A stretch of DNA of 24,302 nucleotides from positions 1-24,302 of the IMG/VR virus record IMGVR_UViG_3300030060_006992; one strand, given 5' to 3'. Within the stretch, counting starts at the first letter, position 1, and the number at the start of each line of letters is the position of its first letter. Shown here piece by piece: positions 5,379 through 21,697 of the stretch. The notes beneath the pieces are model-generated. The model was given only the letters and a program-made list of their open reading frames with translations. It was not told where the DNA came from and did not search any database. The DNA is from a virus. Both the position numbers and the translations under genes were made by a program.

Positions 5379-7949
5379 ATGGCAACAGCTAACCCAAATC
5401 CAAAGAAGAATTTAAAGGCAGGTGAGATAAATCTTGGCTATATCCCTATTGATTGGGCATTAACCCCACTACAAGGTAAAAGAGCATATATTCCTAATTG
5501 GCCTTCTCAACCATACACAATTGAAGAAATAAAACGTGAATTAAATCAGGGAAAAGCAACAGGAGTTGGATTAATTACTGGTGTATGGTCAAACTCTAAC
5601 GGTTTAGTGTGGGTAGATATAGATGGCACAGATGCCATAAAACCTTTAGAGGAATTAGCAGGCACTTCTTTAGAAGGTGCTTTTCCTCCAACACTAACTA
5701 TTTCTTCAGGAAAAACTGATAGAAGAAGAATGCTTTTCAGTATTCCTAAACAACGGCTTACTCAGTTACCTGATAAAGCGACTATAAAGATTGGTATACC
5801 ATCATTCGAAATTTTATATAGATCTAAACAAGGTGCAATCATGGGCACTCATCCTGATACCAAAGGATACTTTACTTTACCTGACAGAGGTTTTGAATAT
5901 GCAAAAAATCCACCAGAATTACCTGAGTGGTTATATGAGGCAATAGCAAAATCGTATCCATTAAATAAATATAAAAGACCTGTCAATGAAGGGGTACTAA
6001 CTCAAACAATAAATCTAAATTATGAGGATGGATCTGAGTTTCAATTAGAAGAAAATTTAAATGAAGCAAAAATCTATTTAGATCATTTAGAACCTGAAAG
6101 AGCCTCTGATTATGAGACATGGATAAAAGTAGGAATGTGTTTAAAACAGATCGATGAAACTCTATTACAGGAGTGGGTTGATTGGTCAAAACAGGCTGAA
6201 AATTTTGAAGATGGGGCATGTGAGAAAAAATGGAATACATTTGAAGTTGTAGAAGGAGGACCTTCACCTGAAAATCATTGTGGTCTACACCATTTACGTG
6301 CTATGGCTAAAGAGGATGGATATGTACATCTCGAAGGTTTTGTAGTTGAATCAGGCGATTCTTTAAAAGATAAAGCCAGAAAAATGTTTGCTGATCCCAA
6401 TACTGATCTTCCAATAAAGGCTGTAAGTGATGTTTTGAAAGATATGTGTGGCGAACCAACAGTAAAAGAACAACAAGAAATATTTAAACAAATATCAGGT
6501 AAGGGTAAACCAAAAACTCCTCCTGCTTCAGAGCTGGCAGAGTATGTAACCCAAATGGTTTTAGAGTGTGGATGGAGATATGATCCTAAATATGATACTT
6601 TTATGTTTTATCAGGCTCCAAGAGGAACTTGGCGCAGAGAAGAATATAGAGATGAATACAAACATTTTGTTCAAGATCTATTTGTAAGGGAAAGAATACC
6701 TACTCCTGGCGGATTTACTTCTCATTTACTTTCTGATGTAACAAATCTAACAAAGGCGTACATTACACAACCATATTGGAATGATGATCCCGATTTATTA
6801 GCTTTTAAAAATGGCGTGCTTGAAATGAGCACAGGAGAGTTTCTAGATCATGATCCTGATAATTACTTAACATGGGGTCTAGACTTCGATTATAACCCTC
6901 ACGCAGACTCTGGACCTATAATCCAGTGGCTTAGAAAGACTCAGTATAACGATGAAGAACGTGTACAAGTCTTAAGGGCTTGGCTAAAAGCTTGTTTAGT
7001 AGGTAAAGGTCATGAATTACAAAGGTTTCTAGAAGTTATAGGTCCTGGTGGTAGAGGTAAGTCAACTTTTGCAAATTTATGTTGTGCTTTAGTTGGTAAT
7101 GGTAATTATGCAAGTACAACCTTAAATCAGTTAGAACAAAGTAGATTTGAAATCGCGTCCATAAAAGGTAAAAGATTAACCTTAATAAATGATTCCGAAA
7201 GATATGGTGGTTCAGCTCAAATATTTAAAGCTTTAACTGGTGGAGATAATTTACGATTTGAAGAAAAAAATAAAAATGTCGGAGAACCATTTGTTTACAC
7301 AGGTATGGTTATGGTCTGTGCAAATGAACCAATACAGACAACTGACAATACATCAGGACTTACTAGAAGAAGATTAACTGTTGAATTTAATAGACCTTTA
7401 TGGGATAAAAATTCAGAGGCAATTGAAATGATAAAGCTTGAAAACGGAGAAGTAAACGGACTATGGAAGAGTTATTTACCAGGCTTAGTGAACTGGGTTT
7501 TAGAAATGGAAACAAAAGAAATGAGAGAATATTTACTTGATACATACGAAAAAGTTTCACATTTAAGAACTGTTAGAAACAGTATTCTATTAACTAGTAA
7601 CAATTTAGTTGAGTGGTTACAGTCAGAAGTCGTACATGTCGGTGATGCAGTATCAGCAGTAGGTAAAAAAATACCTGCACCGAAGGAATCGAAAGAAAGA
7701 TATTGCAATAGTAATTTTCATCTTTATGCAAGCTATTGTTCTTATTGTGAAGATACAGGTTCTAAACCAGTAGGACAAAAAAGATTTATATCACTATTAA
7801 TGGATTGTTGTAAAAATCAATTAGGTTTAAAAGAAATTTTTCATTTTAGTAAACAAGGCAGGCCATTTATAAAGGGATTAGCTATAAGAAATTCTGATCA
7901 AAAGTATAAAAACAGCTCAACTATTTTGCCAGAAAAAAAAGGTAAATAA
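5379..7949 (+). CDS. Primase-helicase: prim-pol, PriCT-type linker and SF3 (D5-like) helicase
   Basis: One 856-residue polypeptide that should make primers and unwind DNA at the phage replication fork. N-terminal AEP (prim-pol) domain: catalytic hDhD strand GLVWVDIDG with D80 and D82, an SSGKTDRRRMLF strand, and GTHPDTKGYF carrying the nucleotide-binding His. Middle: a PriCT-2-like helical domain at about 225-310 (RASDYETWIKVGMCLKQI ... WVDWSKQA). Then a D5_N-like region (about 385-530). C-terminal SF3 helicase: Walker A GPGGRGKS at 555-562, Walker B-like KRLTLINDSE at 598-607, and sensor/motif C MVMVCANEP with its Asn, followed by TRRRLTVEF. The last 130 residues are a Lys/Cys-rich tail. It replaces the T7- or T4-type helicases known in other cyanophages. 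No polymerase gene is in the window. Confidence 0.92.
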   Translation: MATANPNPKKNLKAGEINLGYIPIDWALTPLQGKRAYIPNWPSQPYTIEEIKRELNQGKATGVGLITGVWSNSNGLVWVDIDGTDAIKPLEELAGTSLEGAFPPTLTISSGKTDRRRMLFSIPKQRLTQLPDKATIKIGIPSFEILYRSKQGAIMGTHPDTKGYFTLPDRGFEYAKNPPELPEWLYEAIAKSYPLNKYKRPVNEGVLTQTINLNYEDGSEFQLEENLNEAKIYLDHLEPERASDYETWIKVGMCLKQIDETLLQEWVDWSKQAENFEDGACEKKWNTFEVVEGGPSPENHCGLHHLRAMAKEDGYVHLEGFVVESGDSLKDKARKMFADPNTDLPIKAVSDVLKDMCGEPTVKEQQEIFKQISGKGKPKTPPASELAEYVTQMVLECGWRYDPKYDTFMFYQAPRGTWRREEYRDEYKHFVQDLFVRERIPTPGGFTSHLLSDVTNLTKAYITQPYWNDDPDLLAFKNGVLEMSTGEFLDHDPDNYLTWGLDFDYNPHADSGPIIQWLRKTQYNDEERVQVLRAWLKACLVGKGHELQRFLEVIGPGGRGKSTFANLCCALVGNGNYASTTLNQLEQSRFEIASIKGKRLTLINDSERYGGSAQIFKALTGGDNLRFEEKNKNVGEPFVYTGMVMVCANEPIQTTDNTSGLTRRRLTVEFNRPLWDKNSEAIEMIKLENGEVNGLWKSYLPGLVNWVLEMETKEMREYLLDTYEKVSHLRTVRNSILLTSNNLVEWLQSEVVHVGDAVSAVGKKIPAPKESKERYCNSNFHLYASYCSYCEDTGSKPVGQKRFISLLMDCCKNQLGLKEIFHFSKQGRPFIKGLAIRNSDQKYKNSSTILPEKKGK

Positions 7950-8202: not shown

Positions 8203-8221
8203 AACTCCTCCTTTTTTAATC

Positions 8222-8329
8222 ATGACTCCTGAAGCAGAAAGATTTAATGGCTGGGCAGCTATGCTCGGTTTCGTAGCAGCAATCGGTGCATATGCTACAA
8301 CAGGTCAAATTATCCCTGGTATTCTCTAA
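8222..8329 (+). CDS. hli: Minimal Hli protein, 35 residues, Arg of motif replaced by Trp (Hli 2)
   Basis: Reads MTPEAERFNGWAAMLGF and continues through one helix to TTGQIIPGIL. It keeps the chlorophyll ligands E6 and N9, but the motif Arg is W11, so the usual Glu-Arg ion pair cannot form in a homodimer. It is almost nothing but the helix, near the lower size limit for the family. Its stop TAA overlaps the next ATG (TAATG at 8327-8331), so Hli 2 and Hli 3 should be made in matched amounts. Confidence 0.88.
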   Translation: MTPEAERFNGWAAMLGFVAAIGAYATTGQIIPGIL

Positions 8330-8442
8330 TGTCAAACAACGATATCTTTTTTAAAGCACAAGGACGTGCAGCAATGATGGGTTTTGTGGCCCTTTGCAGC
8401 ATTTACGCCTTCACTGGACAACTTATTCCTGGTTTTATCTAA
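8329..8442 (+). CDS. hli: Minimal Hli protein, 37 residues, Glu and Asn of motif replaced (Hli 3)
   Basis: Reads MSNNDIFFKAQGRAAMMGF and ends in FTGQLIPGFI. It keeps Arg (R13) and the AMMGF turn, but the Glu position is F8 and the Asn position is Q11. It is the mirror image of Hli 2, which has Glu without Arg. Coupled by TAATG on both sides (8327-8331 and 8440-8444). Confidence 0.85.
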   Translation: MSNNDIFFKAQGRAAMMGFVALCSIYAFTGQLIPGFI

Positions 8443-8579
8443 TGGATATTCAAGGATATAAACCAGAAAAAGAAAAGATTATTGCTGAAAAAATTAATGG
8501 TCAATTAGCAATAATTGGTTGCGTTGCCTTAATTGGTGCTTATGTTACTACAGGACAAATAATTCCTGGCATATTTTAA
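8442..8579 (+). CDS. hli: Degenerate Hli protein, 45 residues (Hli 4)
   Basis: The start is ATG 8442 (the frame is open to an ATG at 8394, but that would overlap Hli 3 and TAATG coupling marks 8442). The motif reads E16-K-I-N19-G-Q21-L-A-I-I-G-C27: ligands E and N are kept, R is Q, M is I and F is C. The end is VTTGQIIPGIF as in Hli 1. Coupled to the next gene by TAATG (8577-8581). Confidence 0.85.
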   Translation: MDIQGYKPEKEKIIAEKINGQLAIIGCVALIGAYVTTGQIIPGIF

Positions 8580-8749
8580 TGCCTGAATTATCAGCAATAA
8601 ATGAAATATCTCCCTTAATAGCAATCCTATGGTGTTTATATCCCATAGGATTTTTTATCGTATTAGAGTTAATTTTACGTATTAACGATAATGATGACGA
8701 TGATGATGAAGGTGGAGGTGTTATGACACCCTTATATCAAGGAATATGA
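8579..8749 (+). CDS. Single-helix membrane protein with poly-Asp tail, 56 residues
   Basis: Starts at ATG 8579, coupled by TAATG to Hli 4; an upstream ATG at 8519 lies inside Hli 4 and is not used. One transmembrane helix (about 11-33, SPLIAILWCLYPIGFFIVLE) is followed by an acid run NDNDDDDDEGGG and MTPLYQGI. It is not an Hli: no E-x-x-N. A short helix plus poly-Asp and a Gly/Met-Thr-Pro end suggests a thylakoid or photosystem-associated small subunit, but I cannot assign it to a named one. It is coupled (TGATG) to the next gene. Confidence 0.7.
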   Translation: MPELSAINEISPLIAILWCLYPIGFFIVLELILRINDNDDDDDEGGGVMTPLYQGI

Positions 8750-8823
8750 TGAATTATTTATTTTTTACATTACTAATAGCTACATACTTAGTATCTAATT
8801 TAGGTGCTATTGTTTACTCATAA
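8749..8823 (+). CDS. Single-helix mini-membrane protein, 24 residues
   Basis: ATG 8749 overlaps the previous stop (TGATG). The whole protein is one hydrophobic helix: MNYLFFTLLIATYLVSNLGA then IVYS. The size is like small photosystem or cytochrome b6f subunits (PetL, PsbT class), but no residue pattern allows assignment. Coupling and membrane character favour a real gene. Confidence 0.5.
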   Translation: MNYLFFTLLIATYLVSNLGAIVYS

Positions 8824-10313: not shown

Positions 10314-13043
10314 TTAAGCTGCCTTCAACGCTGCAACTTCGGTTTTTAATACTTCAACCTTACCTATAAGTTCCTGTACAGCAGCTACAAGTAAAGGTAC
10401 AAGTTTACTCTGATCTATTTGTTGTGGTTTTATAGAACCATCTTCATTAACTTGATCTTTTTCTCCTGAAATAGCTTCAGGTATTACATTTTGCACTTCA
10501 TGAGCAAAAAAACCATCAACGATTTTTGTTGAATCTTTTTTGAAATTAAATCTATATGGTTTTAATGTTTTTAATCTTGTTATACCATCAGATATTGCAA
10601 TTTCATTTTCTTTTAATCTGTAATCAGAAGATGTATTAAAAGACGTACTACTACCATTACTTGTTATTGAACCAGAGGTTCCATTTGTTTGGTCAAGAAA
10701 ACCAATCATTGTAGCATTAGTTCCGTCACCTTGATTACCTGCCCTATCATGTTTAATAATTACGCATGTTTGATCTTGTACATTATTAAAATAAAAAGTT
10801 GCAACGTGTGTACTGTCTCCTCCTTTTTGCACTGATAAAAATTCATTAAATACTTTTGAAGTAGCACCTATGAGAACCCTTCCATCGTCGTCTATACGTA
10901 GTTTTTCTGAACCGTCAGTATGAAAACCTATTATTGTGTTTGAATTTTCATTATCTCTATCTGCACTTAGAACTAAATCACCGCCTCCACCTCTAATCTC
11001 GGATTCTGGTGTACCTGAGGCATCACTATCTGTAAGTCTTATAGTTGGAGTAGTAGCTTCTATGTCTAAGGTAACACTAGGACTTGTTGTACCTATACCT
11101 ACGAGGCCAGCTGAAGTAACAGTCATTTTTGTTGATGGTCCAGCAGAATGACTAGAGGAGCATTGAATTTCTAGATTATGACCAGCACCATTATTTTTAG
11201 CAGATAGACCAGCACCTCTTTGATCTGGTGGATTAGTGGATAAAGCACCAAGCATTATTCTTGCTTCGTCATTTGTACCACCATCTGAATGATGTATTGT
11301 TGCTAATGATGGTCCTGTTCCCAAAACTTCTAATGGTGAGTCAGGATTTGTTATACCTATACCAAGAAAGCCTGTTACAGTAGCTCCAACACTTGTAGTC
11401 TCAAACTTTTTACTGTTGTTGAAATATAGTTCTACGGCTCCATCAGCTACAGCTAATAGTGAAGTTTCACCTTCTTTAGCGTTAAGATACATATTTCCAC
11501 TAACTGGGAATATTTGTCCATTACCGCTACCAGTATGTCTTATTTTTACTTTTTGAGCTAATATAACTTCACCATTATGACCAGAAGGTATATTAGTTTC
11601 CAACATTTTAGTGTTGTTGTAAAATAGCTCTACGGCTCCATCTGGTCTTGCTAGAAACGCATCTTCAGAACCACATTTAAGAGATATATGACCAGCAGTA
11701 CCAGAACCACCAGCACTTATAGTAAAAGTAGTATTGCTACTTGAAGTCAAATTTCCAAGAAAATTAACTCCCACGGCTGTAGTCTCGAGCCTGCTACTAT
11801 TGTTGTGATATAGCTCTACGGCTCCGTTCGCATTACAAACAATAGCGTCTTCACTTGTATTTACTTTAGTTACGACTGCTGATCCAGATGAAATATTTAA
11901 ATTACCTGTTGAGTTACTAATTTGCGATTGACTTCCATCATGAAAAAGTTGTAGGTCATCACCAGTTCCTAACTTTATTCTTGAACTATCGTCAGCATAA
12001 AAATGTCCTTGAGATAATTTAACGCCATCACTTCTAGTTTCAAACTTTTTACTATTATTGTGATATAGCTCTACTGCTCCGTTGGCATCTGCAACAATAA
12101 TATTTTCATTATTAGCTGCGTTTCTTAAATGAAAATTATCACTTCTTATATCTAACTCACCTGTTGCACTATGTATATGTGAATTTGTGCCATTATGAAA
12201 AATTTCTAGGTCATTACCTGTTCCGAATCTTGCTTTAGCATTATCAGCAAACTCCAAGCAACTATCTGATTTATCGAAAAGCACATTTGCAGAAGCTCCT
12301 GTGAAGAGTACATCTCCGTCATGAGTTGCACCATCATCAGTGATTGTTCCTATTACTTCTATACCATTTGCTGTAGTCTCTATTTTCTTAACGTTATTAT
12401 GATATAGCTCAACACTCCCATTTGCATTACAAACGATAGCATCTTCAACTCCATCTTTTACTTTTATTTTTATAGGTGAGGTAGCACCTACATTTTTTAT
12501 AATTGCTTCTGAACCTGTAAAAACTAATTGAAAGTTTTGATTAGCTCCTATTCTTAAGGCTTGATTGTCCGCATCAATATCAATATTTTCAGTCGTATCA
12601 ATCATTCCTATTACATCAATACCACTACTTGTAGTCTCTAACTTTTTACTGTTGTTGTGATATAGTTCTACTGCTGAGTCAGTATCAAAAACTATTCCAG
12701 ATTCACTTCCATCTGCATTTTTTATAGAGAAATTTGTCGCTTGTATTTCTAAATTTCCTGTTCCGCCATCTCGAATAACGCTTTTTGATCCATCATGAAA
12801 AATTTTTAAATCATCTGCTGCACCAAATCCAAGTATTGCATTATCTTGAAAACGAAAAGTATCAGCAGATCGTACCCAAGCTACATTGTAATTATTACCT
12901 GTAAAAGTAACACCACTAGTAAAAGTACCTCCTGCCAAAGGCATTGCCCCAGTTACTTTACTTACATCAATTGCCGCAGAATTACTTATATCCGCATTAA
13001 CAATAGTCGAGTCTTTTATAAGTTGTACTTCAGTTTGAGACAT
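10314..13043 (-). CDS. Long tail fibre with repeats and S74 intramolecular chaperone
   Basis: A 909-residue receptor-binding tail fibre or tailspike. The N-terminus (MSQTEVQLIKDSTIVNADIS) is the probable attachment part. The shaft has six imperfect units with (A/S)VEL(Y/F)xNNxxxxET (around 11.42, 11.62, 11.81, 12.06, 12.40 and 12.66 kb) alternating with DDL-x-IFHDGS/NGT segments, a cyanophage-fibre signature. The last 104 residues are an S74 peptidase/chaperone: S806-D807-Y-R-L-K811 with the Ser/Lys dyad, GFFAHEVQNVIPEAI, and a C-terminal coiled coil. This domain helps trimerise the fibre and then cuts itself off before S806. It is the largest - strand gene and probably determines host range. 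Confidence 0.9.
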   Translation of the reverse strand: MSQTEVQLIKDSTIVNADISNSAAIDVSKVTGAMPLAGGTFTSGVTFTGNNYNVAWVRSADTFRFQDNAILGFGAADDLKIFHDGSKSVIRDGGTGNLEIQATNFSIKNADGSESGIVFDTDSAVELYHNNSKKLETTSSGIDVIGMIDTTENIDIDADNQALRIGANQNFQLVFTGSEAIIKNVGATSPIKIKVKDGVEDAIVCNANGSVELYHNNVKKIETTANGIEVIGTITDDGATHDGDVLFTGASANVLFDKSDSCLEFADNAKARFGTGNDLEIFHNGTNSHIHSATGELDIRSDNFHLRNAANNENIIVADANGAVELYHNNSKKFETRSDGVKLSQGHFYADDSSRIKLGTGDDLQLFHDGSQSQISNSTGNLNISSGSAVVTKVNTSEDAIVCNANGAVELYHNNSSRLETTAVGVNFLGNLTSSSNTTFTISAGGSGTAGHISLKCGSEDAFLARPDGAVELFYNNTKMLETNIPSGHNGEVILAQKVKIRHTGSGNGQIFPVSGNMYLNAKEGETSLLAVADGAVELYFNNSKKFETTSVGATVTGFLGIGITNPDSPLEVLGTGPSLATIHHSDGGTNDEARIMLGALSTNPPDQRGAGLSAKNNGAGHNLEIQCSSSHSAGPSTKMTVTSAGLVGIGTTSPSVTLDIEATTPTIRLTDSDASGTPESEIRGGGGDLVLSADRDNENSNTIIGFHTDGSEKLRIDDDGRVLIGATSKVFNEFLSVQKGGDSTHVATFYFNNVQDQTCVIIKHDRAGNQGDGTNATMIGFLDQTNGTSGSITSNGSSTSFNTSSDYRLKENEIAISDGITRLKTLKPYRFNFKKDSTKIVDGFFAHEVQNVIPEAISGEKDQVNEDGSIKPQQIDQSKLVPLLVAAVQELIGKVEVLKTEVAALKAA

Positions 13044-20902: not shown

Positions 20903-21697
20903 ATGAATTTAGATGATTTAATAAAAGAGTTCATGCAAGCAGCTCTTAGTGGTGCAAGTAGAACACAAGTAATTAGGACATTTAAAAAAAATTATCAATT
21001 AAGTGATTCTCAAATAGATACTTTAATAAGAATTTGTAAATTTAAAGTAAAACCAAAAAAAATTAATTATTTAAATTTTTATAAAAATCCTCTAAAGAAT
21101 AAATGTGAAAGAATAAAATACCCAATAACACAAATATACAAATATAAAAATTTTTTATCAAACGATGAATGTGAAGAAGTAATCGATTTAATTTCTAAAG
21201 ATTTAAAGCCATCTACAGTGGCCGATCTAAAAGATACCTGTCTAGTATCCGACTACAGGACAAGTAAAACAGCACCTATGAGTCATTTTCATAATGATTA
21301 TTATTTAAAAATAGATAAAAAAATATCTGATTTACTTGAATTAGAAGCATTTCTTGGCGAGGTGATGCAAGCGCAAAAATATAAACCTGGACAGTATTAT
21401 AAAGAACATTGGGACTATTTTACTCCGTGGGAAAAGCAATATAAAACATATTGTGAATGGATGGGACAAAGAACTTGGACAACAATGATTTATTTAAATG
21501 ATGTAGAAGAAGGTGGTGAGACATATTTTAAACATCTAAAATTAAAAATAAAACCAGAAAAAGGATTGCTTGTAGCTTGGAATAATTTATTTTTTAATGG
21601 CTTTCCCAATTACAAAACTATGCATGAGGCTTTACCACCAACTTCAGGAGATAAATATGTAATTACAAAATGGTGGCGTAGTTGGTCTTTAATATAA
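20903..21697 (+). CDS. 2-oxoglutarate/Fe(II)-dependent oxygenase (prolyl 4-hydroxylase-like)
   Basis: Oxidises a protein or other substrate with 2-oxoglutarate, O2 and Fe(II). 264 residues: an N-terminal helical extension (1-65, basic; RTFKKNYQLSDSQIDTLIRI), then a P4H-type domain opening ITQIYKYKNFLSNDECEEVI. The iron triad is H169-x-D171 (YYKEHWDYF) and H241, and K251 (GDKYVITKWW) would hold the 2-oxoglutarate carboxylate. Also typical are WTTMIYLNDVEEGGETYF and GLLVAWNN. Such enzymes are frequent in cyanophages; the substrate is unknown. It sits alone on the + strand between - strand genes, and its stop abuts that of the next - strand gene. Confidence 0.88.
   Translation: MNLDDLIKEFMQAALSGASRTQVIRTFKKNYQLSDSQIDTLIRICKFKVKPKKINYLNFYKNPLKNKCERIKYPITQIYKYKNFLSNDECEEVIDLISKDLKPSTVADLKDTCLVSDYRTSKTAPMSHFHNDYYLKIDKKISDLLELEAFLGEVMQAQKYKPGQYYKEHWDYFTPWEKQYKTYCEWMGQRTWTTMIYLNDVEEGGETYFKHLKLKIKPEKGLLVAWNNLFFNGFPNYKTMHEALPPTSGDKYVITKWWRSWSLI

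Follow-up and report, generated by a model that had tools for sequence, protein, structure and literature searches.

In LHCII, the chlorophyll-ligand Glu pairs with an Arg of the partner helix. The functional sites of LHC proteins are Glu+0, His/Asn+3, and Arg+5, of which E-0 and R-5 are ubiquitous (PMC3020630). Hlips need dimerization to bind four Chl and two carotenoids, and both homo- and heterodimers are formed (PMC12142464). In Synechocystis, one-helix Hlips occur in dimers, as HliC/HliD heterodimers and HliD homodimers (ChlG2-HliD2), with one partner having a very short N-terminus, and HliD dimers sit on chlorophyll synthase; HliC and HliD both have the Chl-binding motif, and we did not find a partner without Glu or Arg described (PMC12142464, PMC13297055). 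The non-redundant plant one-helix proteins OHP1 and OHP2 also heterodimerize, as is proposed here for phage Hlis, but their motifs (EIWNSR and EISNGR) keep both Glu and Arg, unlike the Hli2 and Hli3 proteins described below (PMC9916820 Table 1). Heterodimeric Hlips, namely HliC/HliD and OHP1/OHP2, are already known.

The window, that is, the whole stretch of 24,302 nucleotides analyzed here, comes from a record that is a 24.7-kb virus fragment. Hli2 (MTPEAERFNGWAAMLGFVAAIGAYATTGQIIPGIL) and Hli3 (MSNNDIFFKAQGRAAMMGFVALCSIYAFTGQLIPGFI) are two members of a five-gene hli array in this DNA (Table 1). All five proteins matched the Hlip profile phrog_178 (E values between 6.5e-27 and 3.8e-13), and resemblance to Pfam PF00504 was found only in Hli1, Hli2, and Hli5, in each case below the cut-off. 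The C-terminal tail TGQ[VIL]IPG is present in Hli1–Hli4 and reads FGTIIPP in Hli5; a TGQxIPGx tail is typical of phage and Prochlorococcus Hlips, and a TGQIIPGF motif has been described (PMC5083919). In the chlorophyll-binding motif, Glu at E-0 and Arg at R-5 are both present in Hli1 and Hli5, the canonical Glu-Asn-Arg members at the flanks; Hli2 and Hli4 have no Arg, and Hli3 has no Glu. Judged from these residues, the motif of the Hlip homologues Hli2–Hli4 is non-canonical, and chlorophyll binding by these three is not to be assumed. By the same reading, Hli2 and Hli4 are Arg-less types in which both chlorophyll-ligand positions are kept; a reduced ligand set is likely for Hli3, whose Gln may still ligate chlorophyll. 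The ORF of phrog_7843, a family of unknown function, contains an Asp-rich stretch and occurs with the hli arrays of dozens of phage contigs.

Table 1 Features of the hli array in the window.
Feature	Position	Strand	Description
hli1, 63 aa	8011..8202	+	Canonical E-x-x-N-G-R, N-terminal extension; phrog_178 E=6.5e-27
hli2, 35 aa	8222..8329	+	Trp-type: Glu6, Asn9, Trp11 (Arg position); phrog_178 E=9.5e-20
TAATG	8327..8331	+	hli2 stop and hli3 start sharing one base
hli3, 37 aa	8329..8442	+	Glu-less: Phe8, Gln11, Arg13; phrog_178 E=2e-13
hli4, 45 aa	8442..8579	+	E16, N19, Q21 (Gln at Arg position); TAATG overlap with hli3 stop; phrog_178 E=9.3e-17
56-aa small membrane-type ORF	8579..8749	+	phrog_7843; TAATG overlap with hli4 stop
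24-aa hydrophobic ORF	8749..8823	+	TGATG overlap with stop of phrog_7843 ORF
hli5, 45 aa	8836..8973	+	Canonical E-x-x-N-G-R; phrog_178 E=3.8e-13

Reading of the sequence confirmed the three motif residues that an earlier note on this DNA had assigned to each of Hli2 and Hli3, as well as the TAATG overlap of their genes. The complementarity of these residues is not peculiar to the pair, however, because Hli4 also has no Arg. Nor does the overlap support the claim that the two proteins are made in equal amounts: most genes of the array are packed in that way, so equal synthesis does not follow from it. In all loci scanned, the junction between the upstream hli stop and the hli3 start was TAATG in 98 cases and TGATG in 15.

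The hli03-hli04-hli05 genes of P-SSM2 and P-SSM7 (T4-GC 267/270/271) have the same gene order and 1-base overlaps as the window, and likewise encode a Trp-type, then a Glu-less, then an Arg-less protein. They differ in having Leu and Asn at the Glu and Asn positions of Hli3, instead of Phe and Gln, and an Hli4 whose Arg position is occupied by Ile, where the window has Gln; the window phage, judged by its primase, lies outside the P-SSM2/P-SSM7 family. P-TIM40 carries the cassette in the same order with the same 1-base overlaps, the Trp-type gene followed by the Glu-less one, and the hli2-hli3 part is also present in P-TIM68. Cassettes of this kind are common in phages and already annotated, and their sequences have long been public; a literature search of incomplete coverage found no published comment on the missing motif residues. 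Homologous genes in the phage order also form a Prochlorococcus host cassette, ENW-EIR-ENY-ENR (e.g., AG-402-P18, loci L174/L337), which like the window comprises a Trp-type, an Arg-keeping Hli3-type, and an Arg-less Hli4-type (Tyr) protein. In host Hli3, unlike the window Hli3, the loss is at the Asn ligand position and the Glu site still has Glu (or Asp/Asn); no host locus scanned had a 1-base overlap with hli2.

The 856-aa primase/helicase of the window (5379–7949) was closest to that of Synechococcus phage S-EIV1 (35.5% identity over 98%). Environmental contigs (L023–L030 and L300) contained the same primase at ~81%, with an hli array just downstream (L300 ends after hli1), and in a relative of the window phage (L282; 60% primase identity) the primase gene was also located directly upstream of hli genes, in this case encoding an Arg-bearing Hli1, a QIR Hli3, and an ENA Hli4 and including no Trp-type gene. 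The primase relatives beside hli genes point to a marine phage related to the S-EIV1 lineage. Megablast revealed resemblance to isolated phages only in ~225 bp covering hli2-hli3 (window 8220–8444; 82.5–87.6% with P-TIM40, P-TIM68, and others), for which P-TIM40 was the best match, with a DNA identity of 82.5%. Since similarity to isolated phages is limited to this stretch and the primase is S-EIV1-like, the sequences suggest that the hli cassette moved between unrelated cyanophage lineages. Elsewhere in the window, a 2OG-Fe(II) oxygenase (phrog_61; 20903–21697) is another auxiliary gene, and a large tail-fibre-like protein with internal repeats is encoded at 10314–13043 (−).

Hli3 loci were drawn by Hli3-like patterns as best matches only, which is no census, and neighbour identity was not a selection criterion. 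The matches listed comprised 93 distinct phage loci and 61 distinct host loci. In the phage loci, the Glu site was L, V, F, I, or T in 85 (the Glu-less loci) and Glu or Gln in the other 8; none of the host loci had a hydrophobic residue at this site (24 Glu, 24 Asn, and 13 Asp). Arg was invariant in the 97 distinct Hli3 peptides among the matches listed (77/77 phage and 20/20 host), and every one of them kept one ligand position, no more or fewer: L/V/F/I/T at the Glu site went with Q/N at the Asn site in 69 peptides, and E/Q/D/N at the Glu site went with I/V/L at the Asn site in 28. Hli3 is probably a separate, older subfamily in which Arg is always kept and one of two ligand positions is lost; phage Hli3 appears mostly to have lost Glu and kept Gln/Asn, whereas in host Hli3 the position lost is that of the Asn ligand and Glu/Asp/Asn remains at the Glu site.

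In a tree of Hli3 (33–36 columns), a single branch divided the Glu-less class from the class with a polar Glu site, and rebuilding without the trait columns again gave a single change; branch support in the reduced set was weak (68). One switch on the tree means that there is no repeated or independent covariation, and because of this single origin the association between Glu-less Hli3 and Arg-less Hlis is weak as functional evidence. The Glu-less state forms one clade on the tree, and its co-occurrence with Arg-less neighbours may represent one event followed by inheritance, reflecting shared descent and not function.

Among the matches listed, a Trp-type gene directly preceded Glu-less hli3 with a 1-base overlap in 67/85 loci and at a distance of up to 40 bp in 5 more; 81/85 had a Trp-type gene somewhere within 900 bp. 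Glu-less hli3 overlapped the gene of an Arg-bearing Hli in 9 of the 85 listed loci and that of a Gln-type in one (L064), and the upstream Hli was not visible in 3. Some Arg-less Hli was present in the array of 83/85 listed Glu-less loci and the remaining two (L047 and L085) end at a contig edge; a Glu-less Hli3 with visible flanks but without a nearby Arg-less Hli was not found among these 85 distinct loci. In this direction, from Glu loss to an Arg-less neighbour, the association put forward in the earlier note held. Of the 61 listed host loci, 25 combined an Hli3 homologue carrying Asp or Asn at the Glu site with Arg-bearing neighbours only, no Arg-less Hli lying within 900 bp.

We considered whether these arrangements reflect a dedicated, obligate Hli2-Hli3 pair, in which a single bridge would form between Glu6 of Hli2 and Arg13 of Hli3, Trp11 would lie against the hydrophobic former Glu position, and the pigments would be reduced in number. 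The residues are charge-complementary, F/L/V/I/T at the Glu site of all Glu-less Hli3 could pack against Trp, and the frequent placement of the Trp-type gene upstream of Glu-less hli3 with a 1-base overlap, or within 900 bp, is consistent with such a pair. However, the Trp-type is widespread without Hli3. A Trp-type match was found in 236/266 Prochlorococcus genomes (E<=1e-15) versus any Hli3 homologue in 63/266 (E<=1e-9), and in viral contigs retrieved with Hli2, Glu-less Hli3 was nearby in only 2/80 loci, some of which had cut flanks. Among isolates, the Trp-type occurred without a Glu-less match in P-HM1, P-HM2, MED4-213, P-SSM4, P-RSM4, and S-SSM5, as well as in the podoviruses P-SSP2, P-SSP3, and P-SSP7; the arrays of P-HM2, P-SSM4, and P-SSP7 were inspected. 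S-RIM50, P-SSM4, and S-CBP4, which showed tblastn likeness to Hli3, were rejected as Hli3 carriers, the matched gene having a canonical ENR motif. Among the matches listed, the Trp-type also adjoined Hli3 in 7/8 phage loci whose Glu site is polar and in 23/61 host loci; these polar-site homologues include some that keep Glu, both in phages and in cassettes of the host. The overlapping Arg-bearing and Gln-type partners noted above, and the single origin of the Glu-less state without independent covariation, also argue against a dedicated pair.

The homologue search proposed in the earlier note thus found Arg-to-Trp without a Glu-less partner, which by the refuting condition of that note counts against the obligate pair, and from the distribution in hosts and phages we reject an obligate coupling of Arg loss and Glu loss. 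Of the asymmetric heterodimer that it had proposed, the complementary residues stand: they are present and conserved, and they would allow a Hli2-Hli3 heterodimer with one Glu-Arg pair. Its obligate, coupled part fails on distribution. A dedicated pair is accordingly an unlikely reading.

Instead, we favour, with a probability of about 0.6, the reading that Hli3 is a ligand-depleted, Arg-keeping general partner helix within an ordinary cyanophage auxiliary hli array. A general role is favoured over a dedicated pair because the Trp-type needs no Hli3 and Hli3 homologues have several kinds of partner. Several single-helix Hlips would be produced from the array, presumably together during infection, and would insert into the host thylakoid, where they could dimerize among themselves and with Hlips of the host, and where, around the assembly and repair of PSII, they could keep chlorophyll and carotenoid in a quenching form. 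The Arg of Hli3 would serve the Glu of whichever Hli has one (Hli2, Hli4, Hli1, or a host Hli), and a heterodimer of this kind is plausible from the residues. The resulting dimer would carry fewer pigments, with no chlorophyll at the Glu site of Hli3, and no dedicated obligate Hli2-Hli3 pair would be involved. A function in infection is suggested by what has been published on the role of Hlips and by hli expression when P-HM2 infects in the light: the phage transcribes its own hli genes, and host hli genes rise (PMC5082946).

A narrower reading, that Glu-less Hli3 is a phage-specific subfamily acting solely as Arg donor to an Arg-less Hlip, seems doubtful to us; it would give a half-loaded unit with one Glu-Arg bridge and Trp on a hydrophobic residue, a dimer form not described so far.

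Relaxed constraint after tandem duplication, in which Hli3 drifted and retained helix-packing residues only, with no pigment and no specific partner, is somewhat less probable again. One ligand position is absent in every Hli3 lineage, and amino-acid evolution of Hli3 was about twice that of Hli2: pN/pS over all pairs was 0.40 and 0.18, respectively (rough values, with synonymous sites far diverged), and dN/dS in less diverged pairs was 0.37 and 0.12. Nevertheless, the pN/pS values are well below 1, and by these estimates both hli2 and hli3 are under purifying selection; moreover, Arg is invariant in all 97 distinct peptides, and position and overlaps are fixed in 85 distinct phage loci, among the matches listed. 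Such a number of distinct listed phage loci, together with purifying selection, also excludes chance or sequencing error as the source of the residue pattern. A non-pigment scaffold resembling PsbS (helix and Arg kept, second ligand absent, E-x-x-V-G-R), serving in sensing or spacing, is very improbable: host ExxIGR/ExxVGR (EIR/EVR) matches the PsbS motif ELFVGR (PMC9916820), but in the window Hli3 the loss is the reverse, with Glu gone and Gln present, and PsbS is a four-helix protein and no close relative, the likeness lying in the motif alone.

Taken at the level of its residues, the locus is a real, conserved, and known phage cassette in which obligate paired substitution is not supported, and a new obligate asymmetric Hli unit is not demonstrated. 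Phage Hlips are assumed to act as the canonical chlorophyll-binding proteins of the host. Common Hlis of phage arrays and their host counterparts are without residues held to be universal in the family, and therefore some Hlis may be structural partners, not pigment carriers.
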